From the NCBI GenBank assembly GCA_022539475.1, contig VCMS01000342.1:1-56966 (forward strand): a stretch of DNA of 56,966 bases, written 5' to 3'. Position 1 is the first letter of the stretch, and every line of letters begins with the position of its first letter. This DNA is from Gracilaria domingensis. Its lineage: Eukaryota > Rhodophyta > Florideophyceae > Gracilariales > Gracilariaceae. Positions 9,250 to 56,966 of the stretch are shown in pieces. Both the position numbers and the translations under genes were made by a program. The notes under the pieces are model-generated. The model worked only from the letters and a program-made list of their open reading frames with translations. It searched no databases and had not been told where the DNA came from.

Positions 9250-10260
9250 AACCCCGGGGGCTGGCAGCCACAGGGTAGGAGTTGACTGCATTACGAATAT
9301 CTTGCAGTATGTGCACTGTAGTCATCTAGAGAGAGATGAGCTATTTGATGCGATATACTGTATTTGATGTATATCACAGACGCAAATGCGTCTGTATAGA
9401 GCTCCTGCAAGTAATCTGGCTCAGCGGGGAGATAGCGGTTTAGCAGGTTTACGCTATCTCGAACAGTGCTTAAGTAGAAAGCTAGTTGTCGATGAACGAC
9501 TTTACGAAGATCACTAATCACTCATCAATAAACTATCTTCTACAACTATACTATTGTTTGTATCGGTCTTTGACGACCAGCGCGACGCAGCCCCAGCAGG
9601 GGCCGTTAGTCTCGTCCGCACATGCAGCCCTGCCGAGGGCTGCCATTGTGCCCCACATCGTTGTCCAGTAGAACAGTGCCGCCGGGCGCCGGCACCCTGG
9701 GCCTCGTTGGTCCAGAACTCTAGCTCCTGAAGGAGCCAGAAAACCGAGAGGCGACAGACTTTAACAGTTTCACCTTATCTGTAACCCTAGAAGCAAAATG
9801 GAGGTACGGAAATGGTACGAAATATGGCCGACTTTGTATCCATTTTTGGCTTCAATATGAAGTTCAAAAATAGGTCAAAATGGGGCCATAAATGTGCCCC
9901 GAATATGTGAATGAAATAATGCCGTATAGATGATTCCGAAATGTCAACGAAATGTCGCCGAAAAACAGACGTAATTAGCGTTCATTTTCATGCCAAAGCA
10001 TGTACAATCTGGTACCAGAATAGGTACGATATTGGGTCACTTGAAAGGATCAGATTTAGACCCGAAATATTTCCATTCATGGACCAGCATAATGCACGAG
10101 ATGAGACCCAAAAATGTTCAGTTTATGCATATATTGATGGTACAGAATTACTACCAAATATGGTCAAAATTTGTACTATTTAACAGCACCTAATTGCATC
10201 GAAAATGGGCATTATGGATTTCCCAAATGTGGCCAATCTAAGTACAAATCCGGTGGCCAA
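9250..10260. repeat. Spacer and subterminal repeat region of Tnp2 element 2
   Basis: The part from 9250 to about 9780 shows nothing recognisable. From about 9790 to 10260 short motifs recur: AAATGGTACG, ATATGGCC, CAAAATGGGGCC and CCAAATATGG. These are close to reverse complements of the motifs at 5900-6335. They lie just beyond the 3' end of the element-2 accessory gene, so they are probably the subterminal binding-site region of that element. Confidence 0.4.
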
Positions 10261-10525
10261 CATACGGGCCCATAACATCCGATGAGAGAATGAGAGTAGG
10301 ACACGAAATATCTGGGAATCTAGCTCACATGATGAGATATGAACCAGGTCCGTTTTCGGTCGTATGTCGTGAAGTAATTTACCGCCTCTAGTACCTGCCT
10401 ACAGCGAAACTTGTATGAACTGATTGGTGGGGAAGGATTCATGGACACTATCCTCCTCACGACTAATCTTTTCCACCAACTACGTCTAACTCCGAGGAAA
10501 CCTCCGGATCTGTACATTATGCAGT

Positions 10526-12145
10526 CTACTCATGACGAACCCTGGGCGCTCCAGCGTTGCAAGCAACTCTTACAAGCGTCCCCCTGGAGGGCTGAACCTT
10601 CGCCCCCCTGTTCTTTGGATGAGTGGCATTTTTGGCCTTCTTCTCTGCACGCGTGCGCTTCTTTCCAAGAGACTTCTTCGGTGAATGAGGAACCTTATCA
10701 TTCGACCCAGACGTCTTGAGTAGACGCTTGCACGCCTCTCGAGGTTTCTTTTTCCCCAGTAAGTTTCTCTTCTGTGCTTCTGATGCGCGCAATCCCTTGC
10801 CCTCCGACTCGTCTCCGGCGGTGTGGCTAGGTTCAATCTCATCACAATCATCAACACCACTTTTCCAGTTATCAGCAACTGGAGGAAGAGTAGAAGTTCC
10901 CGTTGCATCTCCTGCTTCCGTTTCATAAAGAGACCTCAAAAACTCTTTGCTTAATCCACCAGCTACGTTCTGCTTGATATCATCGTCAGGGTTGACAATC
11001 TCGTTATCATTAGATCTTTCCATGCCTATAACAGCAGCAGAAAAAATGTTCCTCTTGGACGGATCAGGAATCTGGTGGTGATGGAGAGGATTCTGGTGAA
11101 GGTCTTCATGATTAGAAATGTGATGATGCGAAGCGGAGTTAGGACGAACAATTTCCTGGTGTTCACTCGCGGTTGCAGTTGCAGGACGCTGAGTCTTCTC
11201 ATCGAATGCGTTCGGAAGAGCTTGATCATTATTACGTTCAAGCTCTTCAATGGACCCACGGAGTTCACTGAATCGTTGATCATGATGATCTCGAGATGGA
11301 GCGGATTGAATGTTCGCAGTGCCTTGCGTTAAGCCTTTCGTGCTACTCGCTGTCTTCTTAGCCTTCGTCTTCTTTGAAGCCTCCACTGCTGCTTTCTTGT
11401 TTCGTTGCACAGTCTCCTTGACGAGTTCCATGATGATCCAGTTGTTTTGTGCGGCGCCCAGAACAGGAAAGCAATCCAGCAACTTCTTCTGCAAGTGGGA
11501 TAGTTGAGATAAGAACTGAGAGCGTATCTCACGAAACGTGAGTTTCCCTCGTTCAAGATTGAGCTTGTGATACATGAAGCGACGATTTTCATCCTTGATC
11601 AAATTTGCAAGCGCCATGTAGATCGGATAATTGTCATCGAAAGGCCCTTGCTTTCCCTGTTTCTCCTGGTACAAGCGGTTGAAAATTACCCGTGCAGAGA
11701 GGAGAGTCCCGGTTGGAAATCCTGGACGATCAGACGGCTTCATCTTTCTCTTACAAGATGCGTTAGGAATAGGAACGGAGTTTCGTGGGAGTATATCGCT
11801 TACGTGTTCATCGCAGGCGGCTTTGGAAGGTAGAATGACATCGTTACGGTTGGGAGTGGAACTGGATGCAAGGGGAACATGTATAGGGCCTGTAGGAGAA
11901 CATCGACGATCATTCGAACTTGCTGGTAAAGCATGCAGATGGTTAGAGCCTCTATTGATGGAGCTCCTGTGCGATAAGGAATAACGTTGAACCGCGCTAT
12001 CAGCCGTGACACGCGGATGAGTCTGTGCAACACGAGAGTTCACCTGTCGAATGAAGTTAGTAACCCTCATGGGAAAGCGTTATTGATGAAACCCACTTAC
12101 CTTTCCAACTTTTGCTGAGATTTGAAGCAAGTATGCACCCGTCTC
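10526..12145 (-). CDS. Accessory gene of Tnp2 element 2, with intron
   Basis: This is a paralogue of 4237-5416, here with an intact main exon. It has the KRKMK..DRPGFPTG motif, then CFPVLGAAQN.WI, a Lys-rich helix, an acidic middle and a basic C-terminus (GKKRTRAEKKAK). A DNA-binding helper role in transposition is inferred from context. A 57-base intron at 12044-12100 has an AAAG/GTAAGT donor and a TTCGACAG acceptor. It joins the main exon to a 45-base exon (12101-12145, exactly 15 codons) preceded by another acceptor, GTTGACAG. The ATG at 12070 would then lie inside the intron, and the true first exon is further upstream, not resolved. The gene is divergent from the transposase at 13343. 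Confidence 0.65.
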
Positions 12146-34462: not shown

Positions 34463-36150
34463 GTCTTAGTTTCTCTGCCTATTGGCTTGGAGAATCATAT
34501 TGTTCTTGCGTCTTGCGCCAGGCTTGATGTAACTTTGGTACCGACGCAGACTCTACTTGTGGTACTAGTGAGCTTTCTGAGGCGTGATCATCCATGACAT
34601 TCGCCGTTTTTCTCTCTCTGTGGCCACCACGGTGGCATATGCGCCGCTCTTGCATGAAAATCAGTATTCGGACTCAGCGACGTCACTGCAAGTAGTTTCA
34701 GAGCCTGGTTTACTGCCGCTTTACAAGGGAAGTGGCGAAAGTAGCGGAGGTTTATGGATTGTGGAATGAGTGCAGTGGGAGTCTTACGGGGTTCTGGAAC
34801 CGGAACAGATATACCATGGAGTGCAAGCGGAATGTTTTAACTTGTGAAATTGAGGATAGAGGGAGTGCATGGAGTGCAGCTGGAGTATTAAGGATGTGTG
34901 AAATGGAGGTTACGCGAGATAAACGTTGGTGCAATGTGAGTGGGCTCTGATGCTCACTCATGCCAAGCTATACATCATTTTGGAACAAACTGGTGGCTCT
35001 CGCGGTGCAATCCTCACGCATATCATGTGCCAAAGTACTTGGTTCTGAGCAATGAGAGGTGTCACTTTGGAACGCATGAGGAGGGCCACAGGAATGTCAG
35101 TGGATACCGACGGTGTCTACATGCACTCCATATGGACTCCAGTTTATGAAATAAACCTGAGGGTATTTGGCGACATTCTCTGCCATTATAATGAATAAAT
35201 TTTTCTCCACCTGCAATCGCATTTTTGCAAATTTTCTGGTAGGGGAGGCGGCTCCCCACGTACGTGATACACGGAGGTAGCTCCACGTAACATCCACGGC
35301 ATACTTCCAGAGATCCCCAGATGAATGGGAGTGGTACATACCTTCCACGCATGTGGTTCGGATGAAGTCGGTTCGCCTCCAAATTCTGAAACGGAATCAA
35401 GTATCTCCATCGGGAGGCACTACGACGCTCAGAGCGGATCATATTCTGCAGATAGTCAGACCGCGAACGATGCGGGAGGTACCCGAATTCAGCACGCAGA
35501 AGCGAACGCGTCCATAACAGAAGATTCCGGTGAAAATCAGCACCTTGGCATTGTCCAATCGAACTCGCAATCCGAGCCAAGCTCTCCCCGTAGGGAATCT
35601 CGCCCATCGTGAGGTAGAAGGCCACATCAAAATGGTATTTTCCCGGCACCGGGTGTTCCGAGTATGTTCGGTGAAGACGCTGGTGAGCCAGGCGGATTAA
35701 CCCCGCTCGAGCGAACGCATCGGACTCCCCACGACTGTGGACGATAGCCTGGATACGAACGGTAATCCGGCGTGGCCAGTCGAGCGTCAATGTCATGAAG
35801 ACGTGAACTTCTCCCGGTAACAGGCCACTGCCATCGGCATGCGCCCGAACGATGTTGGATTGACTAGCCCCTTGAGGGTGAAACCATGGCGCCCAGAGGT
35901 ACGGGGACGGAATCTTTCGAGAATCAACGGCTTCTAGCTCCTCACAGGAGGCTCAATTACCGGGACCCGGGTTAAACATCGGCGGAGCCGGCATGGCCCG
36001 AAAGCCCCAGTTCCAGGGCTGCATCGGTGGCTGGTGGTATTGTGTTGGATGAACATACCAAGCTTGGGGAAGAGGTGCGGGGCGAAAGCCGGAAAATTAA
36101 CCCTGCGGCGCAGGTGCATTGACAAACACTCCCAACTCCTTCAATTCTCT
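34463..36150. other. No gene recognised; long minus-strand frame 35062-35955
   Basis: A minus-strand frame runs from a TGA at about 35957 to 35062 (about 295 codons), with Pro/Trp-rich sequence upstream (NPGPGN) and no known domain. A plus-strand frame at 35325-35612 overlaps it (SETESSISIGRHYDAQ). I could not decide which, if either, is real. The rest is featureless. Confidence 0.3.
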
Positions 36151-36153
36151 CTA

Positions 36154-38553
36154 ATGAAGTACAGACCGTTCTTTTCGAACGAAAAGCGCGCCAAAACCAT
36201 GCGTATCGACTACATATGGCGGGAGCATCGCGCAGGTCCGGCGCGTATCACTGTCACCGCTTTATGTACCTCAGAAAAGATTGATGATAACAACGTCTAT
36301 GCGCAAAGAGAGCTTGTCGCACAAGCGTTGACAACTGGCTCTCTACGCAATAAGAGACCAGCGGCAGAAAGCAATAACGCTTTCAAAGAGCAGCGGCCGA
36401 TACGAACGATTGCGCGTCTCTGCAACCTGTCCAAAGGAAGCATCTGTCGTTTGAAACGAAACGATTTCCAAGCGCAAGAAAAGAGTGTGGAGTACGACGA
36501 CTCTACACACGAACCCAAAGCTGGCCGTAAAACCATTCTGACGTACGCAGAAGAGCGCGCAATTGTTGACAGGTTCAAGGAAATCGCTGATCGGGGCTTT
36601 GCGTGCGGATGTGAGAATGTTAAAGCCATCCCTACCGAAATCGCAGCAGATGGACGAAAGAGCTTTCCAAACGGCCCTCCGACAGACAACTGGGTTTGAA
36701 GCTTCCGCGCGAGACACAAGGACGTGACATTTCGCAAGATGGAAAACCGAGAAGGAGCTCAGATAGCTGCGCAGAACCCCGAGCATGTAGAAACATTAGT
36801 CAACGCCTTGAAGCTATGCCACAAACAGAATCCAGGAATTCTGGACGATCCGGATACTGTGTAGAACATAGACAAGACACAAGTTACAATTAGTGCAACT
36901 GAAACAAAGAAAGAATTTGTCAGCTCTTCCACACACCACGGTGGATTCAAAATGACTTGCGATAGTCACGGCAAACAACTCACCTCTGTAGGAATTGCTT
37001 CTGCATCCGGACGAACAATGCCTCCGTTCTTCATATTCCAGGCCAAAAATCAAATGAATCGATGGTTTGACCCCTTATTGTCAGAAATATTCAAAGATGA
37101 AACCGGAGTGCCGCATTGGCTTGCGGTTGAAAAGTGGTTTCCCGAAGAGGGTTTCGTCATTGGCAATGAAAAGGGCTCGATGACGATAGATATAATTCTG
37201 TTCGTTATTGATCATATTGTGGGGCACGCAGGCGATATTGTGTCCAAGAAGAAGATCGTCCTAATGCTCGATGGGCATAAGTCACGGAATGGGTACATCT
37301 GGCTGAAGAAAGCCAAAGCAGCAAACATTGAGGTTATTGTAAGTCCTGCCAACACTTTCCATTTCCTTCATGTCTGCGACCAGTCTATAAACAAAAGATA
37401 CAAAGAGACCGTTAGAGTTACCTATGACGCATTGAACAAGAAAGCCTTCGTTGATTTCGGTGACTGTGGCATAAAGTTCAAGCTGGGAACTGCGGGATTT
37501 CGAGCACTTACACCAAGTATCGTACAGGAGGCGTTCGAAAAGGTCGGTACGTGGCCCATGGATTTTTGCTTCTTATCCTGGGCCAGAGAGAAATGGGGAG
37601 ACAGCACCAAAGTTGAATCCGGTTCTGTTAGAGCTTCACAAAGAGTAGCAGATAAGAACGAGTGGAACGATGTCATGAAAATAGTAAACAACAAGATGGG
37701 GATGTATTACAAACTTGTTTCTGTCAGAGAACTCGTGGGAGAGAAACAGCAGCGTGTTAATGATAATGTGGAGAAACATACTCCTTCCAAGAAGAGCATT
37801 TGGCGTTATCCAGCTGACCACTACGATAGAACCACAACCCAACGCGGAGCCCCTGCTTCTTACCTCACGAATGGAGATATTATCAGAAAGCGGGAAGAGG
37901 ATGGGCAGAGAGCCAAAGAAGAAGAGCTGCAGAAATTCGAGAGGAAGATTGAGGCTGTCGAGAAAAAGCAGAAAGAAGCCGAGAGGAAGGAAGCTTTGAT
38001 GCTGGAACGCCAGTCCCGGTTTCCGGAGAAGGCTAGGGCCAAAGTTGAAGCTGCTTCGGCTCAAGCAGCAGAGAAGTAGCTTCGTGCGAAGCGCAATGCA
38101 GCGGTGATTAAGAAACGTCTGCGTAAGAAGGCGGAAAGGAAGAGTAAGGCTGAGGAAGGCAAGACAAAAAAGAGAAAGACGAGCGAAGCTGTTTAATGCC
38201 AGCCCATGCTGGTTAATATCCCGGCTGGTGCTCTTTTGAATGGAGAAGAAGAAGAAATAGAGCCAGACCCGACGCCAGCTGTGTAGAAGAAGGTTACTTC
38301 TGAGAAACCGCTGCTTGAATTTGAGGTCAATTAACAGGAGGAAAAGGCCAGAGCTCACAGTATGCTTAAGCTGCGTGACCTTGACGAGAGCTTTCTGAAG
38401 ACTCATGTGGTCGAAATGATTGAATCTGTAGGTGACCATCTAGCACTGAAAGACCCAGAATGGAAGTATTGGAAGCTTGTCGCGAGAGATGGCGATGTCC
38501 CACAATGCTCTAGATCGGGCGAAATGAGCTGTCGTGACCGCGACGAGGTGTGA
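36154..38553 (+). pseudogene. Pogo-like (Tc1/mariner superfamily, DDE_1) transposase with six in-frame stops
   Basis: The N-terminal half has a helix-turn-helix (RTIARLCNLSKGSICRLKR) and the CENP-B/Tc5-type segment GRKTILTYAEERAIVDRF..A.RGFA. The catalytic part has VTISATETKKEF, MPPFFIFQAK, IVLMLDGHKSRNG (second Asp) and SPANTFHFLHVCDQSINKR, typical of pogo/Fot1-like DDE_1 enzymes. A long Lys/Glu coiled coil follows. The frame is continuous for 800 codons without a single frameshift, yet has stops at 36697 (TGA), 36862 (TAG), 38077 (TAG), 38194 (TAA), 38284 (TAG) and 38332 (TAA). The first falls after NWV and the second in V-stop-NIDKTQV, both where relatives tend to have Trp or another aromatic. 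All six can be explained by C-to-T or G-to-A changes. Confidence 0.85.
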
Positions 38554-47270: not shown

Positions 47271-48309
47271 TTACTGTTTATGAACTAATTTGGCGGTTGC
47301 GAGGGTACTGGTCACTTTGTTGCATCGCCTACGATGACCTTTAGACGATAGAAGCTTTTCTGCTGATTGAATTGCTTGGTAAACATCCGGACGATTGTTG
47401 CGTAGCGCATCTTTGTTGTGATAAAAGGAGAAGCAATTGACATGGAATCCTTTCTTACACTGCGAGCAAGAATACATGGTGTACGTGCCATGCGTGCTAG
47501 TCTCTGATGACGAAAGTAGAGAACAAAGAAGACAATGAACACTTTTACGTCCTTCTGTTTCGAGCAGAATGTGTGTTGCGACCGGTGCCGTATTGCTATC
47601 GGCTGGGATAGTTGCGGTGGTAGTGGGACAAGAAAGGCTTCTTAGCCCAACACGTTTTTGCTTGTACTCCAGGTATTCGGTCACAAGCTGCTGGATGATT
47701 CTGTGCTTCATATGAATCACATCAATAAGAGGTTCACCTTCGTTGCTGATCGCGTTGAGAACTGCGTGCGCATTTATGATACTGGCATCAAGAACGAAAG
47801 TGAGCAAACTCATCGTGACTCTCTGCTCCTTCCTCAATGTGGCAGTGGTTGATCTCAATTGATCGAAACGGTCAACGCCGTTCATAAAAAGATTATATGC
47901 GACAATGACCGATGGCACTTGAAGAATCGTTCTATTCATTGCCTCTTTTCCGGTCCATCTTCGCAACGGAGCCAAGCCATGAACACATTTTACGGCATGA
48001 TCACTTGGCTTCTCAATTGTCTGTGACGGTGTACCTGCTAAGTCGTTTGAATAAAACGTTACGACGGTTCGATCCTTGAACACTATGAAACCCGCATTCT
48101 TCGCAGCTACTGGAGGCTCATTTGTGACACCACTGTTCTGCAAAACCTGTACCAGACACCAATCTACCCTCTTGGCATTCTTCATATCTGCGATTGCTTG
48201 CTTTAGAGCGGGCCTATTCATTCCGTCAATGTTATTAAAGCGAACTGTACCTAAAACGCTGCATTCTCCATCGGTCAGACGATCGTCTGTCTCTTGCAGA
48301 TGCTAGTTT
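47271..48309 (-). pseudogene. piggyBac-like transposase, C-terminal part
   Basis: The frame reads TDGECSVLGTVRFNN, then VPSVIVAYNLFMNGVDRFDQLRS (the hallmark YNxxMxGVDxxDQ of DDE_Tnp_1_7), RKEQRV, FVLDASIINAHAV, and a C-terminal Cys-rich domain (HCLLCSLLSS...YSCSQCKKGFHVNCF) as in many piggyBac transposases. The N-terminal domain and the first catalytic Asp residues are missing upstream of 48309. The surviving frame of about 340 codons has no internal stop. Confidence 0.8.
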
Positions 48310-50117: not shown

Positions 50118-53100
50118 ATGGTCTACTACTGTACACATAAGAAGCGTGGGTTCCCCTTCGTTACTCGCCGAGGAGTCTTATCTCTTTAACAGCATGTCAA
50201 CCATTGCCCGTTTCGTCTGAAAGCAGCGCTGGAAGACGACAATAGCCGGGCCATTCGGAGAAGCAAGCGTCTCAAGCTTTCCGCGCCCGCGCCCGCATCT
50301 TCCGAAACGGTCACTGCCCCTTGTCGCCTTCCCGAGCCTCCAGTGTCCGAGGACATCGTCGACCCCACTCCGTGCGCCCCTCCCATTCCGGACACTTCGC
50401 ATTGTGTTTCTCCTTCCCCGGGTCCCGCGTCATTAGAGCGAGAACACGGAAGCAGTTCCCGCCCAGTGCCTTCTGAGGAGGCCCTTGGTGATTTGCATAT
50501 GGATTATCTCACGGTTTGTCTGGCTTCAGTAGCTTCCAACCTTGGTCATCGTGAGGCGGACGAGCTAATTGGGCTACTTCGGGACCCGCGATTCTCGCAA
50601 AAGCGATTCAACGAGACCATAACAAGTTCCAAGCGCTGTACAGAACTGAAGAACGCCATTTTCGAACGATACGCCTCAAAGGACGGTTTCAATCGCAGAA
50701 CTGTCTCGCCAGAAGGATGTAAGTTCAGCGCCACCCTCTACACGAGAGACCCCGTTCAGACACTTGTGAAACAGCTCCAGTTGGCTAACAACGAAAACAC
50801 ATTCTTTCACCCTATACCTCAGACCCACTCCACGAAAATATCTCACCCCATGTCCGGCTCTCTCGCAAGAGACGCCACCTCAAAACTTAAGGAAATGGTC
50901 ATGGGCTCTTTGGATAGTAGAATAGTGTGGTACTCCCAAGAAATAAGTTACAGTGAATCTTTCGTAGGTCTTCTGCAGGTATACACCGATAAGTCTTCAA
51001 CAACTCTAAAGCAAACATCGGTTACCGCCTATCCTCTTCACCTCATATTTCTCAACTTCTCCGACGAGCTTCGCCGTAAGTGTATCCGTGATGACCTCAC
51101 AGTAGTGGCATACTTCCCTACCACACTGATCGAGGTTTCCGCATCTGAAGCAGACGCAATGCCATTCGTTTCTAGCAAGTCTCTACGCGAGTCCAGGATG
51201 CAAATCCTTCAAGAATCTCTTCGTCAAGTCCTGGAGCCCATTCTAAATCTCACGCAGAAAGGTTTTCAGTTCATCGGCGAAGACAAACTAAGTCGAGTGT
51301 GCCATCCTCTGCTTGCAAGTTATTGTGCGGACATTCCTGAGGCTAAGGACATTCTGTCCATTCCTCATGGGACCAAAACGGAAAGACCGTGTCATAGATG
51401 CAAAGCCCCTCGCTCATCTTTATGCAGTCCTATTCCCACCTCATTCAACGGACGTTCTCAGAAGCACACGAAAAGCATCCGAAAGACATACACAGCTATC
51501 TTGCAACATGCACAAAAAGACGAGGCGGAAAGACGTCCACGTCGTGCGAGGGAGAGGAGATCTCAAGCGGATACTCTGATGCGTTCAAATTCCATATCTC
51601 TCATTCCTTCGTTCCTCGAAACTTCCGTAAGCCTTGGAATGATCCCGGGATTGTCTCCATACAGTCTGTTCTCATTCGAACCATTACACAACTTGCATCT
51701 CGGCATCTCAAAGTTGATAAAAACGGCCACAATCGAGAGACTGCAGTCAGACACCCTGTGCACCACAATAGGAACATCTGCATCGCGTTCATTTCGAACG
51801 ATACGCACCCAACTCCTCAACCATGCAAACGCAATTCTAGCTGCCATAGAACGCGATTCTCCTGCCAAAGGTTTACATATCGATTTCTCCACGCAGGATA
51901 AAGGCAAATCTTTGAATGGTATCTTCACGAAAGACGGTCTCCGTGGAATGCTGGAGGCCAAAAACTACAAAGCACTTAACATGGTCTTTCCCTTCATAGG
52001 AGCATTCTTTGACATATGCTGTGGAGAACAGGACGTTGCCCCAATCACAACCGTTTTCTCTCAGTATTCGGACTTGCTCTCGACCTTATTCAGATACAAT
52101 CGTGACCCGTATTGGACTGAAAGCTGTCTCCTGTGTCTTAGTTCGGAGATTGAAGCCTTCAAGCATTCCGCAACAAAGACTCTGGAGGATTTTCATCCCT
52201 CCAGACTGGGAACTCTGAAGTTTCATCTTCTCGATCATCTCGTGGACGATATTCGCCGTCTGGGAAGTATCAAGTACTACGACGCAGGCATATACGAACA
52301 TGCACACCTGCTGTTTAAGAGACACTACAAAAATACGTCCAGAAGAACAGCAACGGCTGTGGAGGAGACTACTCGCTCCATTTAGCACGGACATGTTAGA
52401 AAGCAATGGAATGGCAATACTCCTTACCAGCGTAATCCAGGTTTACCAGGAACTTCCACACAGCTTCCTCGGTTTGCAATGAGAGGGCGTTCTTTCACTT
52501 TACGAGCTCTTCAACATTGTGTTTCAAGTATGTCCAGTTCAAAAGCATGGACTGCTGTTAGAAAGATGTTCTCAAGTACGGACACAAGGTCGATTCTTGA
52601 TCAGATTGGTGAACAGGCCCTTCCTCCTTTCCTCAGTCTCGTGAAAGAAACACTGGATGAGCACTCTATTACATACTTCCCAGAAAAGACAAGGATAACT
52701 CTGGTGAATTCGCCCCTCGTGAAAGGCAGTTTCGTTCCGACTCTTGAACACTTCGATTCGTCTTCTAAGGCACTTAAGCTGGGACGACCCAAATACCCCA
52801 TCATCCAACGTGTCTTCGCTTCTCCAGCATTTGGTCCCAGTAGAAAGCCAAAGTTTTCCACTGTATTGGTAAGCGGAGAAGATTCAGAGACTTGGGTTGC
52901 CCAGGTAGTCGCTCTGAATCGAATATCTCTCCTTGATTCTGCACTTACCGCACCAGAGGTGGCATTCGTCCGGTATTTCGAGGTTTTACCCCCCGCAACA
53001 AACATCGACCACATATTGAAATGCATATCTTTACGGTGGGCTACAAACGATGAAAAGAACCACACTCTTCCGTTCCCTCGTCATTCCAAAGCGGAGACTA

Positions 53101-53297
53101 TCGTAGAGTTAACTCCTTGGTACGGGATGGTTCCGGCTTCTGCACTACAGGGAACTGTCCATGTTGTTCGATCAAACTACCCTGCTCCACCTTTTTGTCC
53201 TCCACTTCAATGGTTTCAACACCGATTCTACATCAATCGATTCTATCATGATTCAGATGAAGGACCAACTGAGCACGTTGATCTTGTACAGCCTTAA
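50118..53297 (+). pseudogene. KDZ/Plavaka/CACTA-like transposase (element 4), two in-frame stops
   Basis: One frame of 1060 codons has no frameshift. It is interrupted by TAA at 50187-50189 and TAG at 52383-52385. The N-terminus is a zinc-finger-like CTHKKRGFPFVTRRG...HVNHC followed by a basic patch (RRSKRLKL). The core reads LHLIFLNFSDELRRK, then HPLLASYCADIPEAKDILSI and a zinc knuckle PCHRCKAPRSS, then FEPLHNLHLGISKLIK, LGTLKFHLLDHLVDD, YYDAGIYEHAHLLFKRHY. This order matches Plavaka-type and related KDZ/CACTA transposases. The C-terminal beta-rich region after the TAG is well kept. Each stop is a single change from Gln (CAA, CAG). Readthrough, sequence error or a young pseudogene are all possible. 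Confidence 0.75.
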
Positions 53298-53454: not shown

Positions 53455-55685
53455 TCACACTGTCAATAAAAAATTTTCTTTCACAGTGAGGTAAAGTCTT
53501 CCGTTCGACAGCATTCGATATCCAAATGTAGCCTCTCTCATGTCATTACCAAGAACCTTAGTCCAATCTTCCGTTGTCGTTCCAAAATTATGAAACTCGC
53601 TGTAATTGGTCCTCAAGACACGTTGCCTAACATCCCTCAGAACATTCTTTAAACACAGAGGTAGCAGTTCGGCAAACTTCTTTGTAAACAGTTTCTGTCT
53701 CTGGCCACCCCTTGACACATCCGTACTTAGAAGGCTCACAACCGTCAACACCCAAGCGTCCAAACGTGCGAGCAACAGTATTGTGCCATCTAAAAAGGTG
53801 CCCGTATCCTTGTCTTCCACATCATACCCAATAAACTCCTTCAGCACTTGTACCCCGACACGGTTTCGGAAGAACAAGTCTTGATCTTCCGTCGGCATAT
53901 CCTCGACATTGTCCGCATTGGAGTACTTTAGACGAACAAATGGGGCTTTTCTCCACCATGAAGTGTTCGGTACACCATTTTCGTCAAGACGCAGTATGTT
54001 CTCCTGCGCTTCCTTCAACTGCATTGTGAGTTCGTCAGCATTCTCTTCTACCAGCTTTGTTCTTCTCCAAATCAGATCGTACCCCAGGAGCAGAAATAGT
54101 TTATCCCTCGTATTTCTCTTACGAACGCCCACGACGTCACTCATGGTCTGCCGCATTCTCTGCCTAAGGCACATATCTGCACAAAGTTCCAGTATACACC
54201 TGTCGGTAAGAGATGCTTTTCTAATACCTTCCCAGCTCAACTCCTTCAACTCGCTTTCAACCATTTTCTTCAGCAAAGCATCTGGCCCCCCTCTACCGAC
54301 GGTATGAACATGCCAAAACTGCCCAAGAGCTCCACGGGGTTTTTAGGAACCATGTATGAACCACCTTCCTCCGGCTCAATAAGCCCTTCCCCACTCTCAG
54401 TTGCGTCTTCCACCTTCTCGGCACGGTTACCTCAATTTCGGGTGAGCGACTCACCTTCGAGCCATAGCTCACTTGTTTCTCTCCTTGCCCACGTCAGCAT
54501 GTTGTGATACACTGCTCGAGCAACCCTCGAAACTCGTCGCACACCTCAATTTTATGCTTCTTTCGACCTGTCTGTCCAGGTTCACCAGCACGTGTACTCC
54601 TATCTCCCTCCTGTTTCAGTGCCCCTCTTAGCCCTTCAATGACTAGATCCTTCTCTTCAAGCCTCTTTTTCAAAGCCGTACTCTGCTCTTGGGCGACCTT
54701 CAATAGAATTCCCCGAACCATCAAGTCCTCTTGTAGCGTCTTAACCTTTTCTTTCAAGCAATTCAGTTCATTTAAAAGATCAGGTCTGTTCATAGAGCTT
54801 GAATTCACACCAGTTTGGATATCTTCCGTTATTTCCCTAGCTTCTTCGGCGACAGGCCCCGGTAATGCCGCAGGATTCGGTGTTATTTCGTTATCGGAAC
54901 TATCCTCATGTGCCATAGCCTTAGACACGAGAGGCTGCAGGCATTCTGTGTCCACCCTTGGCACGGCTCCGAGCTCCAACTCCCGTGTCTGTCCTCCTCC
55001 ATGGCATGGTATATCAGATGAATTGGGCCTCGTACGAGCTGCAACGGCCTCCGTTCTGGAAAGAGGGGAAGGTCGAAAAGTAACTCGTCTATCAGTTGTC
55101 TCTCGATTTCTTATTGTCTTTCTCCCTTGTCCGGACCCATTGCGAGGCATGATACGGTTCATAGCGGCCTCAGTTCTAGAAGACAGGGATGGACGTGACG
55201 ATCTTAATATACTAGGGCTCTCACGACTTCTCGTCATTGTCCTTGTTGTCCAGATCCACTGGGCGGCGTAACCCGCGCCCCAGTAGCTCCGGTCTTCGAT
55301 ATCGGCCGGGACATGAAGGTTTTGGTGTCATACGAACCTCTTCGGTTCCAGTTGTCATGCCCTCCTGTCCTGACCCGCTGGGCCGAGTTACCTCATCTTC
55401 TTGAGGAGCAGAGACAGATGCACGATTTGCATTATCGGCAGTTGACGGCACGACCTCGTTCGCTGATCCACGAATTCTTGACGTAATCCCGAAAGACGCT
55501 CCGCTGCGAGATAAGCGAGAGAGTCCTGTAGAAGGACGCTCACTGACTCTCTCCTTCGTCGAGGACGACTTCCGTTTAGGAAGTGCGGTGGTTGTAGCCT
55601 GATTCGTATCATCCGATGCTCTTCTCTTCTTCTGTCCACTCTTGTTCCGCTGCGTACTATTTCGCTGTCTCGGCGTTATACACAT
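53455..55685 (-). pseudogene. Element 4 second gene: disordered, coiled-coil protein, convergent
   Basis: Three frames in series are read as one gene. The first (from ATG 55685, MCITPRQR) is Ser/Arg-rich and likely nuclear and disordered (GQKKRRASDD). The second (55237-54494) ends in a clear coiled coil (LNELNCLKEKVKTLQEDL to EEKDLVIEGLRGALKQ). The third (54276-53455) is a folded-looking domain (SWWRKAPFVRLKYSNADNV, then DWTKVLGNDMREATFGYRML). The junction near 54285 lies in a run of six G; seven would join the frames (VEGGPDALLKKMV). The stop lies 158 bases from the transposase stop. No family was recognised; it is probably a transposition partner by position. Confidence 0.55.
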
Positions 55686-55722
55686 GTTGTGGAGATAAAC
55701 AGGGTAATGAAACGAAATTGTT

Positions 55723-55749
55723 GGGGAGGGGGGAGGGGGTGGGGGGGGG
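55723..55749. promoter_or_regulatory. G-rich tract with quadruplex potential
   Basis: Four or more G runs (GGGGAGGGGGGAGGGGGTGG and onward) lie between the methyltransferase-SET gene and the coiled-coil gene, 40 bases upstream of the latter's likely start. The minus-strand ORF that reads it as poly-Pro is probably an artefact of this tract. Confidence 0.6.
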
Positions 55750-55932
55750 TGCATGGTTCAGATATTCCGGGAGACTCCGCAGTTCCTGCCTTTTAGGAAT
55801 TTGAGGTGCCCAATGGGTCGCAAATATCGCCGTTACAGATGAAGAGCTCCAGTGTACATGTACAACAACGCGTATTGCAGGCGGCTGCAACACTCACAAG
55901 CATATTTACTTTCTATTTGGTACTGAACTCAT

Positions 55933-56966
55933 CTATTGCTCCAATGTCAGAGCCCAGTCCCAGGCGTACTGCTCTCCGTAGTTGAAATACAACTCTTCGC
56001 CCCTCTCAATATCTCTTACAGCTCTACAACGAAGTAGAGCATAGTTAGAAAGGTCTGACTTGAACTGTATCACGGACTTCGCTTCCACCACCTGCACATT
56101 GGCACTTCGAGTCCTGTTTGACCGGGCTCCGATAAATCGGGATCCCCGGCATGATATCCGGCGTCGTTAATGTAGCCCCCGATACAAAAAGGCGCCGGGA
56201 CAATGTAGACTTCGCTCTCCTTTCTATCCTGAGCCTGTCCTGGTCTGTTCCTCAGGTGCAGAAACTCCGTACCAGTCACAGTGACCATCATAGAAAACAA
56301 CTTGTACCGCACTGGAGTTGCTCCGAGACAGCCACTTCCATACGTTAAGTGTCTTTCCTTCCGGTTCGTCAGATCCGTGTATACCAAAGTTCCATAGAAA
56401 TGACAGATAGTTTCCCCAGCCAATATCTTATGTTCCGTGAACACCCCCATACCAGCACGGGGATGTCGAATCTTAGAAGATGCTATATGTAAGCGATAGC
56501 GATTGGCTTCAACAGTCAACAGCATATGCATATCCATAAGATTCAGAGCTCCTCGGTACTTCCCTCCCAAAGATCTACAGTACGCTGTCCACACTTCTCG
56601 ACAAAGTCCCAGTCCTTCCAGTATCTTCCTAGGAACTGAGTAATATGTCCAGGCATCACTTGGTACTGGGGTAACCAAATGGAGCCTCCCATTCAAGCCG
56701 ACCTCGGTCCCGATGTGGAACCCGTTCATAGGTCGTTGAAGCCGCATCCACCACCTCCTGTTCAACCAGGATGTCATTCTTCCCCCGCGAATAACTTCGG
56801 CCATAAGAGTCGTTAGATGGTGCTTCGCATGGCTGAAACATGGCCTATTCTTCTCCCACCCCAAGAACTTCCTATGCTTTGTCAGCGATAGGCACGCCAT
56901 ACCCGTAGAAAAAGTTCCCGCGAACATGTCCATGACAAGATCACCCGGCTTGTGAAAGCGACATAT
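55933..56966 (-). CDS. Amino-DNA-methyltransferase (N4/N6 type) fused to SET domain; 5' part beyond window
   Basis: The visible N-terminal end reads RFHKPGDLVMDMFAGTFSTGMACL...KFLGWE. This is the HKP (motif X) and D-x-FAG-[ST] (motif I) arrangement of bacterial-type N4-cytosine/N6-adenine DNA methyltransferases, where motif I follows the catalytic motif; the expected DPPY motif would lie outside the window. After about 150 residues a SET-like domain follows: HPRAGMGVFTEHKILAGETI, an insert, GGYINDAGYHAGDP (the N-H-S-C position), then, after a one-base frame change near 56140 in a GATCCCC run, SANVQVVEA and ALLRCRAVRDIERGEELYFNYGEQY, the terminal SET motif. The stop is at 55933-55935. SET domains methylate lysines. 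Whether the frame change is real or an error is open. The neighbouring transposase suggests it is element cargo. Confidence 0.75.

Follow-up and report, generated by a model that had tools for sequence, protein, structure and literature searches.

A predicted DNA-methyltransferase/SET fusion carried by a Plavaka-type transposon of the red alga Gracilaria domingensis

A decayed fusion-gene copy beside a Plavaka transposase

The window analysed here is the whole stretch from position 1 to 56966 (56,966 nucleotides) of contig C342 (VCMS01000342.1; 154,903 bases) in the genome of the red alga Gracilaria domingensis (77.9 Mb, 680 contigs), and its right end holds part of a gene that joins a DNA amino-methyltransferase (MTase) domain to a SET domain, close to the transposase gene of a Plavaka-type transposon. 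Plastid phycobilisome genes mark the host as a red alga, and its phycocyanin subunits come closest to the PDB entries 5y6p (Griffithsia) and 2bv8 (Gracilaria chilensis). What the window contains is the broken, decayed 3′ part of one true copy of this fusion gene (55936..56966, minus strand). The window end directly abuts a 1,146-N assembly gap (C342:56967-58112), on the far side of which the frame continues to its opening near C342:59169. In a Pfam profile search, the open reading frame (ORF) at 56070-56966 on the minus strand matched PF01555 (E 3.4e-5, profile positions 179-214 of 221), which places the motif X/I end of an N6_N4_Mtase domain at 56840..56966 on that strand, with the left edge taken from alignment to the intact L015 copy. 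The same ORF matched the SET family PF00856 weakly (E 0.11), and alignment to L015 sets the limits of the SET region at 55974..56453, also on the minus strand and split between frames. GMGVF and INDAG lie inside the ORF and GEELYFNYG outside it. Four one-base deletions and one insertion/deletion pair distinguish the window copy from each of nine intact copies in alignment, and they place its SET motifs in different frames. A preliminary description of this sequence had named an MTase tail (HKPGD, DMFAGT), SET motifs and a nearby transposase, all of which are present on the strands it gave; the SET domain that it called complete-looking has its motifs, is not complete in one frame in the window, and is complete in intact sister copies.

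The transposase gene (50190..53297, plus strand) ends 2.6 kb to the left of the fusion-gene part. Its frame is broken near 52385, leaving open frames at 50190-52382 and 52386-53294, and some other copies have 1,100 codons. The match to PF18759 on 50343-52385 (E 6.8e-19) bears out the Plavaka half of an earlier "KDZ/Plavaka-like" assignment and rules out a KDZ transposase.

Intact copies of the fusion gene

A genome search gave 949 candidates, from which 132 places with the combined MTase-SET match were listed (hereafter MT-SET places; counts below refer to the matches listed). At 11 of them, all among the 20 loci of about 10 kb that we studied, the match is free of stops and its frame has 1,040 codons or more; nine of these frames are exactly 1,055 codons long, and the others 1,050 and 1,040. 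The uninterrupted sister copies establish that methylase and SET belong to one gene, as had been proposed from the decayed copy. In P0001, the 1,045-residue protein of an intact copy, both families score above their gathering cut-offs: PF01555 at residues 506-743 (55.9 bits against 26.7, profile 2-215 of 221) and PF00856 at residues 873-1032 (32.3 bits against 22.4, profile 1-105 of 105).

The catalytic motif sought in the missing part of the window copy, motif IV, could be read in other copies as DPPF. LTDPPFN is present in eight of the nine intact copies, and TDPPF stands about 200 residues ahead of a D.VMD.F.GTFST block, the order of a beta-class DNA amino-methyltransferase; the block itself, D(L/F)VMD(M/I)F(A/V)GTFST, occurs in all nine. 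Genome-wide, the TDPPFN codon motif has 182 exact matches, with 0 in the control. The PDB chains nearest to the X-I block by sequence are those named DpnA and CcrM. On the SET side, GMGVF, YINDAGYH and EELYF(N/D)YG are each found in 9/9 intact copies, and RSANV in seven (SGNV in L010).

DPPY/F is given as the N6-adenine-type motif, and the rotifer N4-methylcytosine (4mC) enzyme N4CMT has SPPY, in the portions of the source consulted (PMC8885841). Because the motif here is DPPF and not SPPY, the predicted product is N6-methyladenine (6mA) rather than 4mC, although the motif alone is no proof of the base modified. The SET half is likewise predicted to be a lysine methyltransferase. The N-terminal region of about 490 residues has no assigned fold: residues 1-460 of P0001 gave no Pfam match at E <= 5, and no chromodomain appeared among the Pfam matches of the protein. 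As read from these sequences, the predicted product is one protein with two complete methyltransferase domains, borne by a mobile element.

Linkage to the Plavaka-type element

The order of features in the window contig is terminus, Plavaka transposase (plus), ORF2 (minus), MTase-SET (minus), spacer and ORF4 (plus). A listed Plavaka match lies within 12 kb of at least 26 of the 132 MT-SET places, on the opposite strand in 26/26 and at 5-6 kb in 22, so that copies do recur beside the same transposase, as the preliminary description had asked. ORF4 lies within 12 kb of at least 37 of the 132, in 33 cases on the opposite strand and 4-6 kb upstream, and for at least 15 of the 25 MT-SET places situated on contigs up to C67 a terminus that faces inward stands at a distance of 7-9 kb. 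The fusion gene is thus convergent with the transposase, 5-6 kb apart, and shares its left terminus.

That terminus, 5′-CGTCTGTCTCTTGCAGATGCTAG, occupies 48284..48306 (plus strand) in the window. Six junctions with six different flanks all start CGTCTGTCTCTTGCAG, the one in the window at 48284, and the first 20 bases have 545 genome matches at no more than one mismatch (291 forward, 254 reverse), with 0 in the control. Given as 5′-CGTCTGTCTC, the left terminus is neither the TGT..ACA nor the CATCA..TGATG of fungal PlavakaA/B, and the element is therefore filed as Plavaka-type by its transposase only. PF18759 was scored at 123 places in the genome, all over the cut-off. One element copy is inserted into another at L028. 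At L021 we considered an insert as the right terminus and rejected it, since comparison showed a left-end piece: a 489-bp fragment, flanked by AC on both sides, of which 481 bases match other copies.

ORF2 lies in pieces at 53455..55757 (minus strand) and has 832 open codons in L011; it had no Pfam match at E <= 5 and by eye appears basic and coiled-coil-like. Just left of the terminus, at 47271-48221, the window also holds a piece of a PiggyBac-type transposase (PF13843 DDE_Tnp_1_7, E 6.5e-7); at its C-terminus are weak matches of zinc-finger type that stay below the cut-off.

A divergent gene pair and a palindrome array

A spacer of roughly 0.9 kb (L029:3153-4029) separates the starts of the fusion gene and ORF4, which are transcribed away from it in opposite directions. 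In the two copies examined, one stretch of 76-93 bases recurs in inverted orientation at the two spacer ends (99-100% complementary, about 690 bases apart), so that each gene has nearly the same sequence immediately ahead of its start. Within the spacer there is also a 32-bp palindrome, GGTCGTGTTAGGGTA-N2-TACCCTAACACGACC, which occurs alone or in arrays with as many as six members, often at intervals of 110-160 bases; it has 836 exact sites genome-wide (control 0), and the array looks like an operator or partition-site array. On contigs C2-C17, palindromes lie inward within 16 kb at 17 of 27 termini and at none of the other 10. The distance is 4.8-6.0 kb for 13 of the 17 and 9.2-10.2 kb for two; the remaining two, which have a listed MT-SET match, show palindromes at 7.9 and 11.9 kb. 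Of 50 palindromes, 10 have no such terminus. This pattern suggests a short core form of the element, with transposase, array and the N-terminus of ORF4, and a long form that adds ORF2 and the fusion.

ORF4 has 1,308 open codons (L039:495-4409). Its middle weakly matches the phage ParB-like family phrog_3264 (E 0.0085) and GmrSD_N (E 0.15); there was no Pfam ParB match, no ParB among three weak PDB matches, and no match to the ParB-like piece in phages. A stretch near the C-terminus, HTDF...THAG, resembles a 2-oxoglutarate (2OG) dioxygenase by eye only, with no profile support, and a search of the C-terminus for TET/JBP or other 2OG dioxygenases gave no Pfam family at E <= 10 and one unrelated weak PDB match. 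To the right of ORF4, at L039:4629-6499 and also in L040, are two HAD-like hydrolase frames (PF08282) that may be cargo or a captured host gene; L035-L038 match the L039/L040 sequence right of ORF4 for about 1.5 kb.

Recurrence of the fusion within and outside the host genome

With the MTase piece as query, we found a second fusion protein, P0003 (587 residues), on a separate public ENA contig no longer than 6,082 bases. It is 35% identical to the fusion over 542 columns that span MTase, linker and SET, has DPPF, and carries both domains over their Pfam cut-offs (SET at residues 413-570, 23.2 bits against 22.4). Used in turn as query against the host genome, P0003 gave 74 scored places out of 667 candidates, which fall into three groups; all 74 extend into the SET half, and the match that extends least far in that direction ends at P0003 residue 513. 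Group A, the window's own group, overlaps the MT-SET list and accounts for 44 places, and group B, outside that list, for 27. The three group C copies all lie on contig C382 (about 10013-11899, 35729-37612 and 110213-112099), are 39% identical to P0003, and sit in stop-free frames of 1,169-1,170 codons. Across the three groups, stop-free matches occur in frames of 1,055, 1,118 and 1,169-1,170 codons.

Group B shares the arrangement with the transposase: 12 of its 27 places have a listed Plavaka match within 12 kb, and in 12/12 the nearest is convergent and 4.2-5.1 kb off. The group C copies have no listed Plavaka beside them. A count by MTase class used 129 of the best 150 PF01555 places (scored from 328 candidates; 21 short ones excluded, and 7/129 in no class) and sought convergent hits only; it placed a listed convergent Plavaka within 9 kb of 15/86 class-A and 13/33 class-B places, and none was listed within 9 kb of the C382 MTase places. 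None of the 33 class-B places had a listed Pfam SET match nearby (150 scored of 311 candidates), which had suggested a second MTase class without SET; we rejected this, because with P0003 as query the match at these places does extend into the SET half.

These results settle whether the join could be an assembly error or a chance reading of two genes. The window copy, frameshifted and beside an assembly gap, would by itself invite that explanation, yet the same join is found in nine intact 1,055-codon copies, in three genome groups and in P0003. Recurrence on this scale makes a chance or assembly join untenable, and we regard its probability as negligible. Two outcomes that the preliminary description had named as fatal, an N-terminal side without a catalytic motif and halves joined by assembly error, are both excluded, by the DPPF motif and by the shared join.

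Beyond P0003, the relatives that we found are those of the MTase half, namely phage and bacterial beta-class enzymes. Alignment A2 matched at least 57 loci in viral contigs, all inside query residues 59-340, which is the MTase half, and phages gave matches to that half only. The viral contigs held no relatives of the fusion, P0003 or the ORF4 C-terminus, and none when searched with the SET alignment (linker and SET-start patterns); prokaryote genome contigs gave none with the SET alignment using patterns from the linker only. The SET piece alone as protein query found no relative among 63 candidates. A whole-length P0001 protein search returned none at E <= 1e-3 among 7,192 candidates, and it means little because it also missed P0003.

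Selection and decay

Purifying selection acts on the intact fusion copies. Among the 230 changes that separate the nine, 86 are synonymous, against 63.2 +/- 6.7 expected when the same changes are drawn at random sites with stops rejected, and 0 of 2,000 draws reach 86. The ratio of nonsynonymous to synonymous changes (N/S) is 0.47 in frame versus 0.90 and 1.20 in the shifted frames, and it is similar in each part of the protein (N-terminal region 0.52, MTase 0.40, SET 0.43); the pairwise ratio pN/pS for the same copies is 0.42.

Several observations weigh against an active, two-domain enzyme that serves the element. Open frames were the criterion by which the nine copies were chosen, and the copies are related to one another. 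Only 11 of the 132 listed MT-SET places reach the 1,040-codon standard, the other 121 falling below it, some through gaps or contig ends. At 22 of the 150 listed SET places the SET domain has its own 253-codon frame, and in L025 the MTase and SET lie in separate frames (SET-only frame at L025:4657-5415); copies with the two halves apart have thus multiplied, and an element does not require the fusion in cis. In L019, a copy of intact length, DPPF is replaced by DLPF and the (R)SANV motif is gone as well. The Pfam matches of P0001 at E <= 5 include neither a pre-SET or post-SET domain nor a chromatin reader. Exact TDPPFN, present at 18/20 group-A places on contigs covered by 100 listed motif matches, is found at 0/12 group-B places on contigs so covered, and motif IV in group B may therefore be different; the group C contig is outside the range of these matches.

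Much of this would fit a dead or dying passenger, a fusion that was once active and whose copies are now spread by transposase supplied in trans: the 121 places that lack a long stop-free frame, the decayed window copy, the DLPF of L019 and the amplified SET-only frames are what such a history would leave. Purifying selection among the intact copies speaks against it, as do the long stop-free frames in three groups and the retention of both domains in P0003, and we judge this explanation quite improbable.

Proposed function

Our preferred reading, to which we give a probability of roughly 0.6, is that a high-copy red-algal Plavaka-type transposon encodes a bifunctional methyltransferase, predicted to place 6mA and lysine methylation on the element's own chromatin. 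The fusion protein would be made from the divergent promoter region that it shares with ORF4 and recruited to copies of the element, perhaps by way of its N-terminal region or the palindrome array; there it would methylate the DNA, together with a lysine of a nucleosomal or an element protein. Element chromatin would thereby be kept in an element-favourable state, in a genome without a detected 5-methylcytosine (5mC) methyltransferase. As the outcome we prefer anti-silencing to self-restraint. While the domains, their fusion and recurrence, the linkage to transposase and terminus and the selection were observed directly, we infer the 6mA, the lysine methylation and the recruitment.

A search for the C5-cytosine methyltransferase family PF00145 found no match in the host genome, and 10 of 14 control genomes, all prokaryotes, were positive. 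In another red alga, Gracilariopsis chorda, around 8% of the genome is reported as methylated, according to the consulted portion of a review (PMC8566409). The fusion is a candidate source of DNA methylation in red algae. It also makes directly testable whether a mobile element can lay down a histone mark along with a DNA mark that is not the host's.

The MTase half might instead serve transposition, with methylation of the ends or the array, hemimethylation after replication acting as a timer, and the SET half methylating the transposase or ORF4. There is precedent in bacteria, where Dam hemimethylation times the transposition of IS10/Tn10; the relatives that we found for the MTase half are beta-class enzymes from phages and bacteria, the gene is convergent to the transposase in two groups, and SET domains need not act on histones. 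On the other side, some copies, for example on C16, have terminus, Plavaka, array and ORF4 N-terminus and no MT-SET among the matches listed, which suggests that elements can move without the enzyme in cis, although it may act in trans. We consider a role in timing rather unlikely.

A bolder version of the preferred reading, that of a methyltransferase acting on the element's own chromatin, would make the long form a chromatin-identity system of its own, in which a ParB-like ORF4 binds the palindromes and loads the dual methyltransferase, and a combined 6mA and SET mark is independent of host marks; we hold this to be doubtful. In that case the fusion protein would, to our knowledge and in the literature searched, be the first polypeptide that by itself places methylation on DNA as well as on histones.

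Comparison with known systems

Single epigenetic enzymes on transposons, whether C5 DNA methyltransferases, TET/JBP or SET, are already known (PMC12730594, PMC5890265, consulted in part). In the literature searched, which was consulted in part and with most subscription journals outside it, we found no description of a DNA-amino-MTase/SET fusion or of a Plavaka element with MTase-SET. Amoebidium "Plavaka giant repeats" have recombinase genes that match dinoflagellates and red algae; they are described for tyrosine recombinases, and the portion of that account consulted does not mention MTase-SET (PMC11244446). Dinoflagellate and charophyte retrotransposons with captured C5 DNA methyltransferases resemble the present element in encoding a DNA methyltransferase, but theirs is a C5-cytosine enzyme, with no SET mentioned in the sections consulted (PMC5890265). 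Similarly, HarbingerS and MuDR transposons of Phytophthora carry a SET methyltransferase, yet they belong to other transposase superfamilies, and the consulted part of the source mentions no DNA-MTase fusion for them (PMC12730594).

The closest parallel by transposase is found in fungi, where TET/JBP-carrying transposons, Plavaka among them, likewise pair such an element with a DNA-modification gene (Kojima 2025, PMC12730594, in the part consulted). Those genes act in 5mC oxidation, whereas the gene here is a DNA-amino-MTase/SET fusion, and the left terminus begins CGTCTG.. in contrast to the TGT..ACA or CATCA..TGATG of fungal Plavaka. By enzyme, the nearest known system is N4CMT of bdelloid rotifers, also a bacterial-type amino-MTase of family PF01555 in a eukaryote without C5-MTases, which is fused to a chromatin domain, acts at transposons and is linked to histone methylation, according to the portions consulted (PMC8885841). 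By comparison, N4CMT is host-captured and combines SPPY with a chromodomain reader, whereas the Gracilaria enzyme is carried in a high-copy transposon and combines DPPF with a predicted SET writer.
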